Shown: positions 1 to 8,344 of the stretch, one piece after another | Position numbering within the stretch: position 1 is the first letter of the stretch | Layout: each line of letters begins with the position of its first letter | Source of the DNA: Stenotrophomonas maltophilia R551-3 | GTDB taxonomy: Bacteria; Pseudomonadota; Gammaproteobacteria; Xanthomonadales; Xanthomonadaceae | Direction: 5' to 3' | NCBI RefSeq assembly: GCF_000020665.1 | Contig: NC_011071.1 | Coordinates: 672,501 to 736,500, forward strand | DNA: 64,000 nucleotides | Translations under genes and position numbers: made by a program | The notes under the pieces: generated by a model | The model's database searches: none | What the model saw: the letters and a program-made list of their open reading frames with translations, nothing else | Told to the model about the DNA's origin: nothing

Positions 1-93
1 GCCGCCTTGCGTGGGCAACCACTGCCCGAGTTCTCACCCGTCGTCCACGGTGGCGCTGCCAACCACCCTCATCCGCATGAAGTGATGCCATGA
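1..93 (+). CDS. C-terminal end of an unidentified gene (cut by window edge)
   Basis: Frame 1 is open from the window edge to a TGA at 91-93 and gives about 30 residues ending in a His/Pro-rich tail (ANHPHPHEVMP). The stop overlaps the ATG of the next gene in an ATGA at 90-93. That coupling recurs downstream in this operon and suggests that the fragment belongs to the same polysaccharide operon. The product cannot be identified from so short a tail. A diguanylate cyclase or glycan-modifying enzyme would fit the context, but nothing here shows it. Confidence 0.6.
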   Translation, partial: AALRGQPLPEFSPVVHGGAANHPHPHEVMP

Positions 94-2291
94 CCCAGAC
101 CGGCCGCTCTCCCTTGTTTGCTTCCGCTGCCGCGTTCGTCCTCTCGGGCGTGGTCGCCAGTGCCCATGCCGCCGACAGCGTTGCCGGCCAGTTCGCCGAA
201 TGGAGCGGCGACAGTACGGTGAACCGGCAGATGAGCCTGCGCGAACTCGGCTTCCGCCAGCCGCTGGTATTGAGCGGGCAGGAAAGCCAGCGAGAGATTT
301 ACCTGCCGGTGCCGGCCGGTGTCGCCACCCGCGACGCGCAGCTGCAGCTGGACGGGCGCTATGTGCGCGGCCACGCTGGGCGCACTTCCGGTTTGTGGTC
401 GGTCGACGGCGACCCGATCGCCGCGCGTTCGATCACCGATGCGCAGGGCGACGCCAGCCAGCTGCTGGCCATCGATGGCGAACCGCGCCAGAACGGTTTC
501 GTGCGGGTCGGCGTCGGCTGGTGGTCGATCGTTTCCGATTACCAGTGCGCCGACCAGAGCGCACCGGCCAACGTGCTGCGGTTGTCGCCGGATTCGCGTT
601 TCAGCTACCGCTTCGACGGCCGCGCCGTGGACACCGTGGCCAAGGCCTGGGGCGCGCTGCCGCCACGGGTGCGCCTGCTGGTGGATGGCAGAGCTCTGCA
701 GGCGCCTGTCTATGATGCCGCCTGGCGCATCGGTACCGCGCTGCAGGCCGGTGGCAAGCAGGTGCAGGTGGTCGCGCTGCCGAAGGTTGGCGACAGCGTC
801 GACCTGACCGGCATCAGCATCCCGGCCAGCCTGCAGGGCGTGCCGGCCTATGCTGCGCTGGCGTCGGGCGAGCGCGCGTATGTGCTGAAGGATCTGGCCG
901 AAGTCGGTGTGCTGCTGTCGTTGCGTGACAGCGGGCCGTTGGCCGCCGATGCGATGATCGGCAGCGATGCGCTGAGGGCTGGAGTACGCGCGGCGCTGGA
1001 CGCGCTCGCTGCGCAGGTCGGCGCCACTGGCGCTGATGCGGGCACGGCGTTCGCCGCGTGGCGCGGTACCGGCATGGGCGGCCTGGAAAAGCCCGCAGAC
1101 AATGGCTCGGTCAGCGTGGTCGCCGTTGCCGGCCGTCCGACGCTGGTGGTCGATCCGGCGGCGGCCGGCAAGGTCGCCGGGTTGTTCGCCGATCAGTGGC
1201 GCAGCTATGCGCTGGGCCGCAGCCTGCAGGTCACCGCGGCCGGCATGCCGAAGCTCGACGGCGACCAGGTGCTGCTGAGTCGGCTCGGCAACATCGCAGG
1301 CACGATGGACGTGGTCACCCGCGCCGATCGCAGCGCCACCTTCGACCTCGGTGCGTTGTCGGCCGATGGCCGCCTGCCCGAGCAGGTGGTGATCGATGTC
1401 TCTGCGGCGCCGAACGCGGCCGGGCAGGGCGCGGTAGCCACGATCTATTTCAATGACTACCTGCTGGGTGGGAAGGTGCTGGCCGCCAATGGCCAGCCGC
1501 AGCGGCTGGTGGCCAAGGTGCCGGCCTATGCACTGTCGGCGCGCAACGAGATCCGCGTCAGCTTCCTGCGCCAGCCGGCACGCCCGTACTGCCACGATCC
1601 GGCCACTGGCTATCCGGTCTCGATCCTGCCCAGCAGCCACCTGACCCTTGCCAAGCGTTCGCTCGGCAGTGACTTCGTCGGTGCCAGCAGCCAGCTCTCG
1701 CGCGGCAGCCAGGTATTCGTGCCCGGCACCTGGCTGCAGGACGCGCCGACCTCGCTTGCCAAGGTCATCGCCATCGCCAGTGCAGTGGGTGCATCACCGG
1801 AGGCCTCGGAACTGAAGGTGGTCGACGCCGGTGCCGCGGTCAGTCCGGGAGCGCCGTGGCTGGCGTTCGGCGTGGCACCGGCCGGTGTCGATGTGGCCGG
1901 CCTGAAGGACGGCCACCTGCTGATCGGCGGCACGCCGCAGCCGCTGCTGGATGTCAGCGGCCTGGACCGCGCCGCGGTGGTGCAGGTCGGCACCTCCGGC
2001 GGCCAGCTCGGCGTGTTGTACAGCGACCTGGGTGCGCAGGCACCGTCGTTCGGCGCGCCGTTCCGGTTGCTGCGTGGTGATCTCGCCGTGCTCGACGGCA
2101 GTGATGCCGTCCGTGAGTTCGACCGCCAGGACCCCTATGGGAGCCGCGTTGCCGAGGACGGCAATCCGCAATCGAAGTGGGAACGGCACATGGTCTGGTT
2201 GCTGCTGCTGGTCGGCGTGATCGTGTTCGCGCTGCTGGCTGCCCGCGTCACCCAGGTGCGCCGCCGCAAGTCCGCCAACACAGGGCACTGA
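90..2291 (+). CDS. BcsB-like periplasmic membrane-anchored subunit of a polysaccharide synthase
   Basis: The 733-residue product has a signal peptide (hydrophobic segment about residues 9-24, cleavage near AHA-A), a long beta-rich periplasmic body, and one C-terminal transmembrane helix (about 702-720) followed by a basic tail (RRRKS). This is the layout of the cellulose synthase B subunit (BcsB), the periplasmic partner that guides nascent glucan out of the synthase. The assignment rests on architecture, overall resemblance and context: the next gene is a processive family-2 glycosyltransferase starting 6 bases after this stop. The start overlaps the preceding stop (ATGA). It is probably not true cellulose machinery, because the neighbours are NfrB/NfrA-like rather than BcsA/BcsC. 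E. coli nfrAB has no such partner that I know of. Confidence 0.7.
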   Translation: MTQTGRSPLFASAAAFVLSGVVASAHAADSVAGQFAEWSGDSTVNRQMSLRELGFRQPLVLSGQESQREIYLPVPAGVATRDAQLQLDGRYVRGHAGRTSGLWSVDGDPIAARSITDAQGDASQLLAIDGEPRQNGFVRVGVGWWSIVSDYQCADQSAPANVLRLSPDSRFSYRFDGRAVDTVAKAWGALPPRVRLLVDGRALQAPVYDAAWRIGTALQAGGKQVQVVALPKVGDSVDLTGISIPASLQGVPAYAALASGERAYVLKDLAEVGVLLSLRDSGPLAADAMIGSDALRAGVRAALDALAAQVGATGADAGTAFAAWRGTGMGGLEKPADNGSVSVVAVAGRPTLVVDPAAAGKVAGLFADQWRSYALGRSLQVTAAGMPKLDGDQVLLSRLGNIAGTMDVVTRADRSATFDLGALSADGRLPEQVVIDVSAAPNAAGQGAVATIYFNDYLLGGKVLAANGQPQRLVAKVPAYALSARNEIRVSFLRQPARPYCHDPATGYPVSILPSSHLTLAKRSLGSDFVGASSQLSRGSQVFVPGTWLQDAPTSLAKVIAIASAVGASPEASELKVVDAGAAVSPGAPWLAFGVAPAGVDVAGLKDGHLLIGGTPQPLLDVSGLDRAAVVQVGTSGGQLGVLYSDLGAQAPSFGAPFRLLRGDLAVLDGSDAVREFDRQDPYGSRVAEDGNPQSKWERHMVWLLLLVGVIVFALLAARVTQVRRRKSANTGH

Positions 2292-2297
2292 TCCACC

Positions 2298-4445
2298 GTG
2301 GACGGTCTGTTCTGGAACATCCAGCTGGCCAACTACTACGCCGCACTGGAAGCCACGGCGGCGGCGGTGGCCGTGCTGATCCTGATCTCCAGTCTCGATG
2401 ACCTGTTCATCGATGTCTGGTACTGGGTCCGCGAAAGCTGGCGCGCGCTCACCATCAAGCGTCGCGATGCCTACAAGCCGTTGACCCAGGAAGACCTGCT
2501 GCAGCGACCGGAGCAGCCGCTGGCGATCATGGTGCCAGCGTGGATGGAGTACGACGTCATCGCGCAGATGGTCGAGAACATGATCAACGTACTCGACTAC
2601 CGCGAGTACGTCGTGTTCGTCGGCACCTATCCCAACGACCAGCAGACCATTGATGAAGTGGAGCGCATGCGCCGCCGCTACAAGCGCCTGCGCCGCGTGG
2701 AAGTGCCGCACGACGGGCCGACCAGCAAGGCCGACTGCCTGAACTGGCTGATCCTGGCCATCTTTGAGTACGAGAAGCGCCACGACATCGAGTTCGCCGG
2801 TGTGATCCTGCACGACAGCGAGGACGTGCTGCATCCGATGGAACTGCGCTTCTACAACTACCTGCTGCCACGCAAGGACATGATCCAGCTGCCGGTTACC
2901 TCGCTGGACCGCGAGTGGTACGAGCTGGTGGCCGGCGTTTACATGGACGAGTTCGCCGAATGGCATGCCAAGGATCTGGTGGTGCGCGAGAGCGTGTCCG
3001 GCATGGTGCCCTCGGCGGGCGTCGGTACCTGCTTCTCGCGACGCGCGCTGCTGGCGTTGAGTGCACAGACCGACAACCAGCCCTTCAACACCGACAGCCT
3101 CACCGAAGACTACGACGTCGGTGCACGACTGGCGGCGATGGGCATGCAGTCGATCTTCGCGCGCTTCCCGGTGCAGTTCCGCGTGCGCCGGCCCTCGTGG
3201 TTCGGCTGGGGCCCGGTGCGCGAACGCACCCAGCAGATGGCCCTGTGCGTGCGCGAGTACTTCCCCGACAACTTCCGCGCTTCCTACCGGCAGAAGGCAC
3301 GCTGGGTGCTGGGCATCGGCCTGCAGAGCTGGGAGTCGCTGGGCTGGCGCGGCTCGCTGGCCACCAAATACCTGCTGGCGCGAGACCGCAAGGGCATCAT
3401 CACCTCGTTCGTCAGCATCATCGCCTACGTCATCTTCCTGCAGCTGCTGTTGTTCTGGCTGCTGAAAATGACCGGGGTATGGACGATGCAGTTTCCCAGC
3501 GTGTTCCAGCCCGGTACCTGGCAGATGAACGTGGCGCTGCTGACCACGGCTGCACTGGCGACCCGCGTCGTGCAGCGCTTCTACTTCGTCAACCGGCTGT
3601 ATGGCTGGGAACATGCGCTGATGTCGATCCCGCGCATGGTGGTCGGCAACATGATCAATTTCATGGCCACCGCGCGTGCCTGGAAGGTGTTCCTGGCCTA
3701 CCTGCTGTTCGGCAAGCGCATGGTCTGGGACAAGACCATGCACGATTTCCCGGATGCGGCGCAGCTGGTACAGACCCGCAAGCAGCTGGGCGAACTGCTG
3801 GGCACCTGGCAGGCCGTTGAACCCGAACGCCTGCAGCAGGCGCTGGACCAGCAGCATGCCGGCCGGCAGCAGCCGTTGGGCCGCATCCTGCTTACCCAGG
3901 GCTGGCTGGACGATGAAACACTGGCCGAGGCGATCGCCTTCCAGGGTGACCTGCCACGCGCGGTGATCGACGTGGATTACCTGCGTGCCTGCCAGTTCCC
4001 GGTCAGTGCCGATGCCTGCGTGCAATGGCGGATGCTGCCGCTGCCGCCGCGTCAGGAAGGTACCCTGCGGCTGGCCGTGGCCAGCCCATTGCCCGAAGAG
4101 GCATTGGCACTGCTGAAGCAGGAAACCCGCAGCGAGCACATTGAACAGAGCATCGCCCGCGAAAGCGAGATCAACGCGGGACTGCGCCTGATCGGTGGCG
4201 ACCGGCAGTGGCACCTGGACAACGTGCCACTGCTGGGCGACCTGCTGGTGGAAATGCGCCTGATCGATCACGCACGCTTCGAGATCGCACTGGACGACTA
4301 CAAGCCGCAGCGCGACGGCCGCATCGGCGATTACCTGGTGAAGCAGGGCATCACCACCGAGGAGGCCGTGGCCCAGGCCATGCAGGAACAGCGCCGGCGT
4401 GCGGCCACGCTGCAGTCGCCGCCTCCCGGAGCCTTGCCGGCATGA
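2298..4445 (+). CDS. nfrB: NfrB-like inner-membrane glycosyltransferase with two C-terminal MshEN modules
   Basis: The 715-residue protein starts with GTG. It has an N-terminal transmembrane segment (about 13-33) and a family-2 glycosyltransferase domain: acidic HDSED at 172-176, TED at 269-271, and a processive-synthase QxxRW as QKARW at 332-336. Membrane helices follow between about 370 and 480. The C-terminus has four 24-residue motifs of the LG-x2-LL/LV-x2-G-x-I-x4-L-x2-A-x3-Q type at 496-519, 526-549, 645-668 and 675-698. These form two tandem pairs with 6-residue linkers, the signature of the MshEN c-di-GMP-binding domain. E. coli NfrB is a c-di-GMP-controlled glycan synthase needed for phage N4 infection. 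The sugar substrate here is unknown. Confidence 0.88.
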   Translation: MDGLFWNIQLANYYAALEATAAAVAVLILISSLDDLFIDVWYWVRESWRALTIKRRDAYKPLTQEDLLQRPEQPLAIMVPAWMEYDVIAQMVENMINVLDYREYVVFVGTYPNDQQTIDEVERMRRRYKRLRRVEVPHDGPTSKADCLNWLILAIFEYEKRHDIEFAGVILHDSEDVLHPMELRFYNYLLPRKDMIQLPVTSLDREWYELVAGVYMDEFAEWHAKDLVVRESVSGMVPSAGVGTCFSRRALLALSAQTDNQPFNTDSLTEDYDVGARLAAMGMQSIFARFPVQFRVRRPSWFGWGPVRERTQQMALCVREYFPDNFRASYRQKARWVLGIGLQSWESLGWRGSLATKYLLARDRKGIITSFVSIIAYVIFLQLLLFWLLKMTGVWTMQFPSVFQPGTWQMNVALLTTAALATRVVQRFYFVNRLYGWEHALMSIPRMVVGNMINFMATARAWKVFLAYLLFGKRMVWDKTMHDFPDAAQLVQTRKQLGELLGTWQAVEPERLQQALDQQHAGRQQPLGRILLTQGWLDDETLAEAIAFQGDLPRAVIDVDYLRACQFPVSADACVQWRMLPLPPRQEGTLRLAVASPLPEEALALLKQETRSEHIEQSIARESEINAGLRLIGGDRQWHLDNVPLLGDLLVEMRLIDHARFEIALDDYKPQRDGRIGDYLVKQGITTEEAVAQAMQEQRRRAATLQSPPPGALPA

Positions 4446-7264
4446 AGACCACGCTGCTGTCCACCGTCATTGCTATCGCGCTGGCTACAGCCACCGCACC
4501 GGTACTGGCACAGGCCGATGCGCCGCTGCCATTGTCCGGTGCGGCCTACCGCATCGCCGAGCAGGCGTTTGCCGCCTATGAACGTGGCGATTACCCCGCG
4601 GCCTACCAGCAGTCCAGTGAAGCGATCCGGCTGCGCCCGGATGTGGTGCGGCTGCGCCTGCTGCAGATCTATGCGCTGCAGAAGCTCGGTCGTGGCGCAG
4701 AAGCGCAGCAGCGGGCGCGCCGTGCGCTGGACGCGGGGATGAAGGATCCGGCTTTGCCGGCGCTGGCCGCCGCTGTGCCCAAGACGACCACAGGTGCGGC
4801 GCGTAGCGCAGCGTTGCCACGTGCGTCCGCCACGGCGGCCGACCGCAACAGCCGGCAGGCCTACCTGCTGGCAACCGAAGCCTATGCGGCCTACGACGCC
4901 GGGCAGATGGGCATTGCCGCCAGCAAGGCCGAGCAGGCGTTCCGGCAGCAGCCGAAGCAGGGCGCGTGGGCGCTGCTGTGGGTGGCGGCGCTGGAGGCTC
5001 AGCAACAGCCCGAACAGGCCGACGTCGCCATCAGCACCGCGCTGCAGCTGGGGGCACCCAACGTCGAGGAACTGCGCGCGCGCCGCGTGGTGCTGACGCG
5101 CCAACGCGCGCTGCTGCTGGCCCAGCAAGCCTATCGATCGCTGTCCGCAGGTGATGATGCCGCGGCCATTGGACATGCGCGCGACGCCGTGAAGCTGGCA
5201 CCGGAGGTGGCTTCATACCGGTTGCTGCTGATCACCGCGCAGCTGCAGGGCGATCAGCTGGCCGACGCTGAGCACAGTGCCGATCAGGCACTGCAGGTGG
5301 ATGCCAACGACCTCAATGCACGGGTCATGCGCGGTTACCTGCGCCAGCGCCAGGGCAGCACGTTGCGGGCCAATGAGGATTTCGACGCCGCGCTTGCCAC
5401 GCCGGGATCAACCGCGCAGCAGCGCAACGTGCGCCTGCTCGCGGTGGATGCGGCACTGGCTGCCGGCGATCGGGTGCGTGCGGCTGCACTGCTGGCACCG
5501 TTGCAGGCGCCAGTGCCAGCAGATGAAAAAGACGCACGGGCACAGCTGCTGTTGCAGCAGGGCATCGAGCAGCGCGCCAAGGCGATTAGCTCCAGTCGCG
5601 CGCTTCCCCGCATCAGCGCCGAGGCCTACCCGGCACCGGTCCAGCACTGCCAGTCCGGTGACAGCAGCAACGTCTGCGAGCTGATGCCGGCCGACCTTCA
5701 GGGGGATGGCGGTGCCGCGCAGCGTGCCTACGCTGCCTATGCACGCAGGGACTACGCTGACGCCATCGGTGAGGCACGGCAGGCCGTACAACTCGCACCG
5801 GAGGACGTGAACCTGCAGGGCCTGCTGACCACCGCGCTGGCAGCGGGCAACCGCGTCCAGCAGGACGAAGCGCGGCAGCGCCTGGATGCGGCACTGGCGC
5901 AGCACCCTGATGATGCGGGCGCGCTGATGCAGCGCGGCTACCTCAACCAGAAGGCACGCGAACCGGCGCGCGCACTGGCCGACTTCCATGCCGCCGAGGC
6001 CACCGGCAAGGCACCGAAAAGCGTAGTCCTCGACCAGGCCTACGCCAGCGCCGCCAACGGCGATCATCCACAGGCGGTGACGCTGCTGCGTAGCGCGATT
6101 GATCGCGCCGATGCCGGTGAGCTGCCGCTGGATGAGCACCAGCGATACAACGTGCGCAATGCCATCGCCAATTATTCGCGCGAGTGGGGCGTGATCGCCT
6201 CGGCGGGTTTCCGGGGTGCGCGCCAGGCCGCAACCAATGTCGGCGGTGCGGCGATCAGTACGCCCGGCGATTCGGTGTTCAGTACACTGGAGGCGTTCTG
6301 GCGGCCCCCGGCCTTCAACGACCAGCATGGCACGCTGGAGCTCTACGCACGCCTGCTCAACACGCTGTACGACGAGGGTGGCACCTACGAGTCGATCCGT
6401 GCGGTGGATCCGTGCACCGGCGAATCAACGCCGGATGCGCGTGCACGCGCCGAGCGCCTCAGTCATTCGCGTTCGACCACGGGTTGGCCATCCACCATCG
6501 CTTCCTTCGGCATGCGCTATGCGTTCGGCCAGACCGGGCTCAGTGCCGGTATCGAGCGCAGACAGTTCCTCGGCAGTGCCACCCGCCAGGGCGAGGTCTA
6601 CCCCGCATCGGCGGCCGTGCAATGCCGCCTGCAGCTGGCGCTGAACCCACCACTGGAAGCCAGTACGCTGGCGCGCTACCGGTTGGCCAGTGGTTCCGGT
6701 GGATGGATGTCCTACCTGACCTACGGCTACTACCACGGCACCGATCTGCGCACCGATGTGAACCAGTGGTGGATGGTCAGTGGCTACGCGCAGGGGGGAT
6801 ATACCTGGGACGACAACGGTGCCAGCTTCACCCTTGACGCGCTCGATGCCAACGGCACACCGGTGCGGCGCGTGGGCGAGGCCAATGGCCGTCTGCATCG
6901 CGAACAGTGGTTCGCCGCTGGTGAACTACGTGCCGGCCGCAGTTTCCGCTTCGGTTCCGGGCAGACCCACTGGGTGGTCACGCCCTATGTGGTGATAGGT
7001 GCGGACTGGCTGGACCAGCGCTCGCGCGTGCGCGACCTCCGCTACCCGCTGTTGCCGTCGCAGTCGTTCGCGCTCAACGACAGCCAGCGCAGCTGGTCAC
7101 TCGGCGCGGGCCCGGGCGTGGGCGTGCGCTACTGGTTCCGCGAGGACCACTACAACACGCCGCGCTCCTACCTGGATCTGACCGTGCAGTACCGCTTTGC
7201 GATCGGCGGCGGTGATACGCAGCGCGCCAAGGGCCTGTTCGCCACCGCCATCCTCTACTACTGA
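4442..7264 (+). CDS. nfrA: NfrA-like outer-membrane glycan export / phage-receptor protein
   Basis: The start chosen is the ATG in the ATGA overlap with nfrB, giving 940 residues with a clear signal peptide (MKTTLLSTVIAIALATATA, cleavage near VLAQA). The central part is Ala/Leu/Gln-rich with repeated AYxAYxxGxYxxA helices, typical TPR repeats. The last roughly 330 residues are aromatic- and Gly-rich beta-strand sequence ending in a YRFAIGG...AILYY tail, like the NfrA C-terminal domain. NfrA of E. coli is the outer-membrane partner of NfrB and receptor for phage N4; TPR-plus-barrel is also the plan of the BcsC exporter. An upstream in-frame extension exists but lies inside nfrB and would bury the signal peptide. 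The end overlaps the convergent gene by 7 bases. Confidence 0.85.
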   Translation: MKTTLLSTVIAIALATATAPVLAQADAPLPLSGAAYRIAEQAFAAYERGDYPAAYQQSSEAIRLRPDVVRLRLLQIYALQKLGRGAEAQQRARRALDAGMKDPALPALAAAVPKTTTGAARSAALPRASATAADRNSRQAYLLATEAYAAYDAGQMGIAASKAEQAFRQQPKQGAWALLWVAALEAQQQPEQADVAISTALQLGAPNVEELRARRVVLTRQRALLLAQQAYRSLSAGDDAAAIGHARDAVKLAPEVASYRLLLITAQLQGDQLADAEHSADQALQVDANDLNARVMRGYLRQRQGSTLRANEDFDAALATPGSTAQQRNVRLLAVDAALAAGDRVRAAALLAPLQAPVPADEKDARAQLLLQQGIEQRAKAISSSRALPRISAEAYPAPVQHCQSGDSSNVCELMPADLQGDGGAAQRAYAAYARRDYADAIGEARQAVQLAPEDVNLQGLLTTALAAGNRVQQDEARQRLDAALAQHPDDAGALMQRGYLNQKAREPARALADFHAAEATGKAPKSVVLDQAYASAANGDHPQAVTLLRSAIDRADAGELPLDEHQRYNVRNAIANYSREWGVIASAGFRGARQAATNVGGAAISTPGDSVFSTLEAFWRPPAFNDQHGTLELYARLLNTLYDEGGTYESIRAVDPCTGESTPDARARAERLSHSRSTTGWPSTIASFGMRYAFGQTGLSAGIERRQFLGSATRQGEVYPASAAVQCRLQLALNPPLEASTLARYRLASGSGGWMSYLTYGYYHGTDLRTDVNQWWMVSGYAQGGYTWDDNGASFTLDALDANGTPVRRVGEANGRLHREQWFAAGELRAGRSFRFGSGQTHWVVTPYVVIGADWLDQRSRVRDLRYPLLPSQSFALNDSQRSWSLGAGPGVGVRYWFREDHYNTPRSYLDLTVQYRFAIGGGDTQRAKGLFATAILYY

Positions 7265-8262
7265 GGCAGGCCCCAACGTCGTCGCAGCGCCGCGGCCTGC
7301 GGGGTGTCCTGGGTCAGCCACGGCTCCAGTGCATAGACCAGCACGTGTTGCGCGCCGCTGTCGCGTGCCCATGCCAACTGCCGCTGGATGCGTGCGGCAT
7401 CGGCGGTTTCGCCCTTGAATCCGCTGCCGTCGGCAGGGCCGCCGGGCAGTTCGCGGAACAGTTCAACGATCGCATCGAAACCAATGCCATGTGCATGGAA
7501 ATGATCGAGCAGCGGTTGCAGCTGCTGCACGTTGCCGGCACCGGCTACACCCACACCGTCCTGCACCATCGGCCGCACCGCCGCTTGGGCCAGCACGGCC
7601 TGCCACAGCGTGACCAGGTTGCCATCGGTCTGCAGGCGGCTGAAGTAGCAGGACATCGCGCAGTCACCACCGCGTGCGCTGGCCGCCTGCACCAGCCCGT
7701 GCAGCCACTGCGCCAGCCAGTGCTGGCGGGCCGGATCGGCCCAGTGGTACTGCTCCAGCTCGTAGGGCAGGTACCAGCCCCCGAAGGCCGGCTGCTGCGC
7801 CCAGGGCGCCTGTGCCAACCAGCTGCGTGCATGCCCCAGGCTCTCGGCCAGGAAGGCCTGCAGCGTGGCATCGTCTGCGCCGATGGCCTGCCACCAGCGT
7901 TGCTGGAAGGGCAGGCCGACGCGGATGCGGATGTCGTTCTCGCTGGCAGCGGTGAACAGCTGCTGCAGGCTGCCGTCGGGCAATGACCAGTCGCCGTCAC
8001 TGCCACCGACGATGCCGGTCCATTGCAGCACCAGCTGCCTGCAGCCCAGCGTACGTGCAAGCTTCAAGGATCGCTGCCAGTCGGCCAGGCCCCACTGCAG
8101 GTGGCTGCGCCAGGGCTGCAGGAAGGAGCCATCCACCTGCACCGGCAGCGAGCAGCCGGGCAGGGTGGCGAGCGTACCGGCCAACGGCGCCAGTACTGCC
8201 GCACGCAGCAGCCGGCGGCGCAACGGCGAGGACGGATCAGCAGGAAGGACTGGCGGTGGCAT
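7258..8262 (-). CDS. DUF4434-like TIM-barrel lipoprotein, possible glycan hydrolase
   Basis: The 334-residue product starts at MPPPVLPADP. It has a basic twin-arginine-like region (LRRRLLRAAV, 15-24) and a lipobox ending TLPGC (Cys37), so it is probably a lipoprotein. The rest looks like a glycoside-hydrolase-type alpha/beta barrel related to DUF4434: QLVLQWTG, conserved Trp/Glu in WYLPYELEQYHW, and a C-terminal VLVYALEPW strand. Its stop overlaps the nfrA stop tail-to-tail. A role in trimming the polymer made by the neighbouring synthase is plausible but inferred. A longer reading frame begins in the palindromic repeat at 8310 and is less likely. Confidence 0.6.
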   Translation of the reverse strand: MPPPVLPADPSSPLRRRLLRAAVLAPLAGTLATLPGCSLPVQVDGSFLQPWRSHLQWGLADWQRSLKLARTLGCRQLVLQWTGIVGGSDGDWSLPDGSLQQLFTAASENDIRIRVGLPFQQRWWQAIGADDATLQAFLAESLGHARSWLAQAPWAQQPAFGGWYLPYELEQYHWADPARQHWLAQWLHGLVQAASARGGDCAMSCYFSRLQTDGNLVTLWQAVLAQAAVRPMVQDGVGVAGAGNVQQLQPLLDHFHAHGIGFDAIVELFRELPGGPADGSGFKGETADAARIQRQLAWARDSGAQHVLVYALEPWLTQDTPQAAALRRRWGLPQ

Positions 8263-8309
8263 GCCCGCATCATCCCAAAGCACCGTGCGCGGCAGGTGAA
8301 CCACCGCCC

Positions 8310-8333
8310 GGTAGTGCCGGCCGCTGGCCGGCA
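8310..8333. repeat. SMAG-type GTAG palindrome (single)
   Basis: GGTAGTGCCGGCCGC / GGCCGGCAC palindrome between two minus-strand genes. It begins with the GTAG tetranucleotide that defines SMAG elements. It is one of more than a dozen copies in the window. Confidence 0.8.
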
Positions 8334-8344
8334 CCGCCCAACGC

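Follow-up and report, generated by a model that had tools for sequence, protein, structure and literature searches.

A BcsB-equipped nfr-type locus for predicted surface glycan secretion in Stenotrophomonas maltophilia R551-3 and its relatives

The nfrBA-ybcH/WecB pathway of Escherichia coli K-12 (N4 glycan receptor, NGR) has been published together with its c-di-GMP control and its role in phage infection, and the accessible text of the two reports places ybcH in the nfr operon and wecB in the ECA operon (PMC8669469; PMC8669472). K-12 has no bcsB at the nfr locus, as the initial annotation of the DNA studied here had supposed for E. coli. In the accessible part of a 2025 report, the PGR locus pgrA-G of Acinetobacter baumannii includes homologues of BcsB (PgrD), NfrB (PgrC), and WecB (PgrF) as well as an outer-membrane porin (PgrG); PgrE is said to resemble the C-terminus of PgaB, and deletion of pgrD abolished the adsorption of phage StAb3 (PMC12507263). 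A BcsB homologue in the nfr cluster of Achromobacter xylosoxidans was published in 2021, and O-acetyltransferase homologues are mentioned in the same available text (PMC8669472). As far as our literature search and the text available to it reached, these two reports (PMC8669472; PMC12507263) are the only ones in which BcsB is paired with NfrB. Within that literature, the member described here with its wecB and DUF4434 ends, the evidence for its fold, the clade-wide division of NfrB into BcsB-equipped and BcsB-less systems, and the prediction of a glycosidase are new.

The S. maltophilia locus was analyzed in a 64-kb stretch of the R551-3 genome (the window) and comprises the following features.

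1 to 93, forward strand: 3′ end of wecB, encoding a UDP-GlcNAc 2-epimerase of 394 aa from the listed start (PF02350, 366.5 bits)
Genome C1:671409-672593, forward strand: whole wecB gene, mostly upstream of the window
90 to 2291, forward strand: BcsB-fold periplasmic subunit (Pfam BcsB, AlphaFold model, fold searches, hhalign)
2298 to 4445, forward strand: NfrB-type GT2 polysaccharide synthase with C-terminal MshEN (NF012033, PF13641, PF13632, PF05157)
3783 to 3944, forward strand: MshEN motif region of NfrB, residues 496-549 (NF053729, 72.7 bits; cut-off 38)
4442 to 7264, forward strand: NfrA, 940 aa, TPR and outer-membrane C-terminal domain (PF13283 NfrA_C, 85.2 bits)
7258 to 8334, reverse strand: DUF4434 (YbcH-type) protein, predicted glycoside-hydrolase-like TIM barrel (PF14488, 160.5 bits)

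The end of wecB overlaps the start codon of the bcsB-like gene as ATGA (90-93), a gap of 6 bases separates the latter from nfrB, and nfrB and nfrA overlap again as ATGA; the reading frames of the locus genes in the window are intact. By this spacing (ATGA, 6 bases, ATGA), wecB, bcsB, nfrB, and nfrA form one operon and would be transcribed as a single transcript. The DUF4434 gene is convergent with nfrA, with a tail overlap of 7 bases, and thus stands outside the operon here. The coordinates bear out the trio of bcsB-like gene, nfrB, and nfrA with its 6-base and ATGA coupling given in the initial annotation, which had these three middle genes right and missed both ends of the set, namely wecB, lying mostly outside the window, and the DUF4434 gene. 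The DNA that precedes the window holds a set of fimbrial genes, with subunit, chaperone, usher, and adhesin-like ORFs recognized by eye (L003:5600-10641; genome C1:666100-671141). It is on the strand of wecB, ends 267 bases 5′ of the start listed for that gene, and calls to mind the SMF-1 fimbria known from S. maltophilia.

An MshEN GT2 synthase, NfrA, a DUF4434 protein, and dependence on a WecB-type epimerase are common to this locus and the E. coli system as the accessible text describes it (PMC8669469; PMC8669472), whereas bcsB and wecB in the operon and a convergent DUF4434 gene set the Stenotrophomonas locus apart. With the cellulose synthase Bcs it shares the BcsB fold, the C-terminal helix, and the logic of synthase, partner, and exporter, but NfrB is not BcsA, and WecB belongs to the operon. 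The initial annotation was right that NfrB and NfrA are coupled to a subunit with the BcsB fold. As a parallel, E. coli nfrBA-ybcH/WecB with BcsB added is closer than the bcsB-bcsA-bcsC order it drew on, because no PilZ domain was found, MshEN is present, and the operon includes the epimerase gene. The likeness to PGR is drawn from the published description of PgrC and PgrD, not from their sequences, and the accessible text shows a difference in gene content, including a DGC-like protein without the GGDEF motif (PMC12507263). PgrE may correspond to the DUF4434 protein. A search of 244 genomes from one order for the nfr locus of Acinetobacter gave three matches, none of them known to come from that genus. 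The published Achromobacter cluster comprises nfrA, nfrB, wecB, and bcsB (PMC8669472). In the Achromobacter loci of our survey (L129, L132, and L133), NfrB belongs to the same clade as that of the window, and BcsB was found by the same profile, but NfrB is shorter (564-575 aa) and by eye holds the first MshEN half only.

Structural comparison of the 90-2291 product, based on its AlphaFold model and fold searches, returned BcsB chains of cellulose synthases as all 22 of the best matches, the opposite of the lack of likeness to BcsB on which the initial annotation had said its proposal would fall. In the predicted structure, the BcsB fold spans most of the chain, and a C-terminal helix (residues 696-731) is suited as a membrane anchor. 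Pfam PF03170 matched the protein with 28.4 bits (cut-off 21), falling to 19.5 bits, below the cut-off, in a six-frame search, and the scores for the equivalogs of cellulose BcsB were far under their cut-offs (NF008324, 19 vs 972 bits; NF008330, 11.8 vs 945 bits). A sequence search against the PDB gave two chance matches only; the kinship came from the fold comparison.

The synthase scored 1212 bits against NF012033 (PRK15489, a sibling family; cut-off 537) and 32.6 bits against PF05157 MshEN (cut-off 23.1), and its score against NF008411, the equivalog for E. coli NfrB, was under the cut-off (652.9 vs 1170 bits). The GT2 motifs DxD, TED, and QxxRW are present (D173, T269-E270-D271, and Q332-R335-W336) and invariant in 15 sequences. 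Residues D169, D267, W330, L490, and G491 of E. coli NfrB correspond to D173, D271, W336, L497, and G498 here, and L537 is replaced by I546. According to the available text on E. coli, D169, D267, and W330 serve catalysis and L490, G491, and L537 serve c-di-GMP binding, and mutants at the first five of these positions lost N4 plating or showed it reduced (PMC8669469). Judged from this alignment, NfrB is a protein that keeps its catalytic and c-di-GMP-binding residues, and it would be active and under c-di-GMP control in R551-3. No PilZ domain was found in it by Pfam, and its regulatory domain is MshEN. NfrB proteins of 562-575 aa were observed in Achromobacter and Variovorax (L129, L132, L133, and L145); by eye, they end without the C-terminal part in which the window NfrB holds a second MshEN-like motif pair.

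NfrA also gave TPR matches, which were under their cut-offs. The DUF4434 protein scored below the YbcH-type equivalog NF007404 (69.2 bits vs a cut-off of 344), and its model is an eight-stranded barrel with two invariant glutamates, E192 where strand 4 ends and E291 where strand 7 ends. Its structural rows in VIA-align are mostly glycosidases, and sugar isomerases and epimerases also rank high in Foldseek, so the barrel alone is not proof of a hydrolase. We thus predict from the model a TIM-barrel glycosidase with a conserved glutamate pair. A literature search on DUF4434 found no papers.

The operon WecB is the sole Epimerase_2 protein over the cut-off in the 4.57-Mb genome (PF02350), the second-best match reaching 25.1 bits against a cut-off of 30.6. 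This status fits a rule stated in the available text on E. coli, by which wecB travels with nfrB loci where no other pathway supplies the epimerase (PMC8669469). The presence of WecB is by itself no proof of the polymerized sugar, which we infer to be ManNAc.

Taken together, we consider wecB-bcsB-nfrB-nfrA to encode, with a probability of roughly 0.8, a BcsB-equipped form of the NGR/PGR kind of system, in which secretion of a surface glycan containing ManNAc depends on a synthase under c-di-GMP control. Its substrate, the topology of its complex, and a role as phage receptor are proposed as follows. WecB would convert UDP-GlcNAc to UDP-ManNAc, and NfrB, activated by c-di-GMP at MshEN, would polymerize UDP-ManNAc and pass the chain through the inner membrane. 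Held by its C-terminal helix, the BcsB-like protein would take up the chain in the periplasm via lectin-like domains, and the TPR domain and barrel of NfrA would export it through the outer membrane, with the glycan possibly serving as a phage receptor at the surface. In other synthase systems, periplasmic hydrolases trim or clear chains; the DUF4434 protein may likewise trim or clear stray ones.

To determine how widely the arrangement occurs, relatives were gathered by whole-genome and contig searches with NfrB, and their neighboring genes were then taken. Genomes with NfrB numbered 9 of 198 in the family (E up to 1e-60) and, with E up to 1e-100, 7 of 369 in the class and 14 of 398 in the phylum; of the nine genomes listed as own or same genus, four carried it. 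By neighboring genes, eight of the nine family loci, two of the seven class loci, and six of the 14 phylum loci were BcsB-equipped; the class count leaves aside a locus with a divergent BcsB (L042), some genomes occur in more than one draw, and split bcsB genes, including that of G071, were scored as present. A further sample, the named loci, consisted of the best 80 of at least 565 matches to the window, 79 of them with a readable nfrB frame, and this choice of best matches favors the BcsB-equipped clade. Of these 79, 77 have bcsB ahead of nfrB and in the same orientation, 68 have wecB (some of them in part), 68 have nfrA, and 56 have DUF4434; some of the 23 loci with no DUF4434 match have too little flank, and contig ends account for some of the missing genes. 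The locus left out, L115, has an nfrB frame that runs off the contig, and a bcsB ORF (544-2799) precedes it. The order wecB-bcsB-nfrB-nfrA is conserved across genera and was found in Xanthomonas, Pseudoxanthomonas, Pseudomonas, Burkholderiales, and Hyphomicrobiales. Together with the Achromobacter (2021) and Acinetobacter (2025) precedents, this distribution does not sustain the suggestion of a separate system in Stenotrophomonas. Over the 62 loci in which all four genes were long enough, the distance matrices of the four proteins correlate with one another (Spearman coefficients of 0.42-0.59), and for each pair none of 500 permutations was as high.

Several loci depart from this layout. The bcsB-like gene of Stenotrophomonas geniculata ATCC 19374 is broken into a pair of ORFs that overlap (L055:4792-6994; L031:5106-7308); the two records are seemingly one genome, and the split may be real or an assembly error. 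In Marinicella sp. W31 (L120), wecB, bcsB, and nfrA are each broken into several short ORFs and nfrB is intact, grouping with the NfrB of Martelella (Hyphomicrobiales) in a quick tree. Two wecB-nfrB loci (L142 and L144) are located on Zymomonas plasmids of 30 and 53 kb, and on plasmid pZA1001 a Tn3 transposase gene follows nfrB in the place of nfrA.

Near-identical rows were removed before tree building, leaving 61 of 110. The quick tree covered all 61, and a careful tree of the NfrB catalytic domain was built after dropping the long branches L039 and L047 and the divergent L040-L042. In the careful tree, 41 BcsB-equipped rows and Collimonas form one NfrB clade (support 100/99) apart from E. 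coli NfrB; the next row is Burkholderia pyrrocinia (L139; 100/98), and neither it nor any of the ten E. coli-type rows or remaining outliers has BcsB at the locus. Presence of BcsB required two label changes on this tree, whereas shuffled labels needed 13.4 (none of 500 shuffles was as low), and three on the quick tree with the divergent rows included, compared with 16.4. The best reading of these trees is that BcsB was recruited by one NfrB branch; because they are unrooted, gain is preferred to loss by parsimony.

The two named loci without bcsB (among the best 80 of at least 565 matches) are those of Collimonas strains, in whose genomes no BcsB was detected by a profile of the window BcsB family (E up to 1) or by Pfam BcsB (E up to 0.01). 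Their NfrB nests in the BcsB-equipped clade; the labelling with one origin occurred in 4% of 200 bootstrap trees. It has the clade residue at 21 of 22 diagnostic positions, a lead at most since these were picked after looking; at the sole exception, position 437, W is found in 39 of the 41 BcsB-equipped rows and P in both Collimonas. Collimonas as a proven case of BcsB loss was set aside, as the AU test does not reject its placement outside the clade (p = 0.356).

Two further loci bear on the history of BcsB. In L042:6762-13768 (G348), a divergent BcsB, WecB, a TPR protein, and a distant NfrB are encoded in a row; this BcsB scores 140 bits against Pfam and 27.7 against the iterated profile of the window BcsB family, and the A2 search of its genome did not list it. 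The TPR protein matches the NfrA profile weakly (34.5 bits), which makes this another arrangement. Genome G398 has an nfr locus without BcsB, and elsewhere (L146:7613-16824) a second BcsB-type gene, nearer to the window family (202 bits), beside a different GT2 gene and genes for an unknown protein, a GH113 protein, and a CotH-kinase protein. The start of this GT2 resembles MshEN, with no Pfam call for that domain, and it scores 27.1 bits against the NfrB profile; the cluster is possibly another c-di-GMP-linked synthase cluster. From these two cases, BcsB seems to join such synthases more than once. A more far-reaching reading, to which we give slightly under even odds, is that BcsB is no integral part of this synthase type and instead a detachable module acquired once by one NfrB branch and transferred through alpha-, beta-, and gammaproteobacteria, that the L042 branch acquired a different BcsB independently, and that Collimonas has none detectable in its genome.

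The alternative that BcsB is an ancestral partner of NfrB lost by E. coli would agree with the joint action of BcsB and synthase in cellulose systems. It would also agree with the need for the BcsB homologue in Acinetobacter phage adsorption, as given in the accessible text (PMC12507263), and with the related BcsB next to another synthase in G398; divergent or missed BcsB genes may also be present in outlying loci, as in L042. We regard it as unlikely, because two label changes suffice and a gain on one branch is thus cheaper than an ancestral BcsB: the E. coli-type rows, L139, and the other outlying rows have no BcsB at the locus, on a tree whose root was not inferred.

Cellulose or a similar glucan as the product, with NfrB in the place of BcsA and BcsB indicating what is made, is suggested by the BcsB fold and by cellulose-type BcsB genes in the vicinity. 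Of the four family members of other genera whose nfr locus is BcsB-equipped, three have such a gene at a distance of about 7-8 kb from it (G111:C1:3998350-4000200, G134:C1:4418345-4420195, and G172:C22:290899-292734, at 723-761 bits; not G186). This reading is highly improbable: an ATGA overlap ties an epimerase gene to the operon, NfrB has MshEN and no PilZ was found in it, the BcsB-like protein scores far under the cellulose BcsB equivalogs, and the cellulose-type BcsB in those three genomes is additional to that of the nfr locus and hence a separate gene. Least probable of all is a relic kept by chance whose BcsB-like protein no longer works with NfrB, for although NfrB is patchy (four of nine own or same-genus genomes, 9 of 198 in the family) and genes are split in S. 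geniculata and Marinicella (L120), the window frames are intact, the couplings tight, and the catalytic residues kept, the BcsB-like protein shares 96% identity with that of S. maltophilia NEC1 and 57% with that of Pseudoxanthomonas, and the same order occurs in several families.

The phage side was approached through N4 gp65, which is annotated as tail sheath and receptor-binding protein. Relatives of gp65 were found in 62 phage records, named for Escherichia (19), Achromobacter (17), Pseudomonas (13), Acinetobacter (9), and Delftia (2) or without a genus (2), and none of the 62, two of which name no host genus, is named for Stenotrophomonas or Xanthomonas. Phages with gp65 relatives thus include those of Escherichia, where E. 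coli has the nfr locus form that lacks BcsB, and those of Achromobacter and Pseudomonas syringae; in our survey, genomes of Achromobacter and of the P. syringae group carry the BcsB-equipped locus. Residues 53-473 of gp65 (L135:17774-19036) alone match 178 records; among the 40 matches listed are weak ones to Acinetobacter phage Mystique (29% over 113 residues, E 4e-5) and to Justusliebigvirus phages, as well as five Campylobacter-named and two Klebsiella-named phage records. The same stretch recurs in phages Loki (in the whole-gp65 search), Halfdan, and Ab_SZ3. In the accessible text of the respective reports, the host range of Mystique correlates with the PGR locus (PMC12507263), Justusliebigvirus phages Bas60-62 use NGR (PMC11990801), and the Achromobacter phages were already noted (PMC8669472). 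Residues 53-473 are, by sequence, a candidate marker of phages using NGR/PGR-type glycans, and the matches suggest, without proving, that BcsB-equipped and BcsB-less NfrB forms make related glycans. A kinship between the TIM barrel of phage gp65 and the host DUF4434 protein was considered and found unsupported (hhalign probability 0.1).

If the proposed reading of the operon is true, a glycan phage receptor would be predicted in S. maltophilia and its Xanthomonas relatives. In cellulose synthases, BcsB and the catalytic subunit act as a pair, which makes it difficult to tell the individual roles of BcsB apart. NfrB occurs in nature with BcsB, in the clade of the window, and without it, in E. 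coli, possibly making related glycans, and therefore a direct test of the role of BcsB is possible. If BcsB is indeed a detachable module, NfrB systems with and without it would make the same kind of glycan, and their comparison would separate a catalytic role of BcsB from guidance of the chain in the periplasm. The Stenotrophomonas cluster, set beside an E. coli version without BcsB, is thus a good place to ask what this subunit does.
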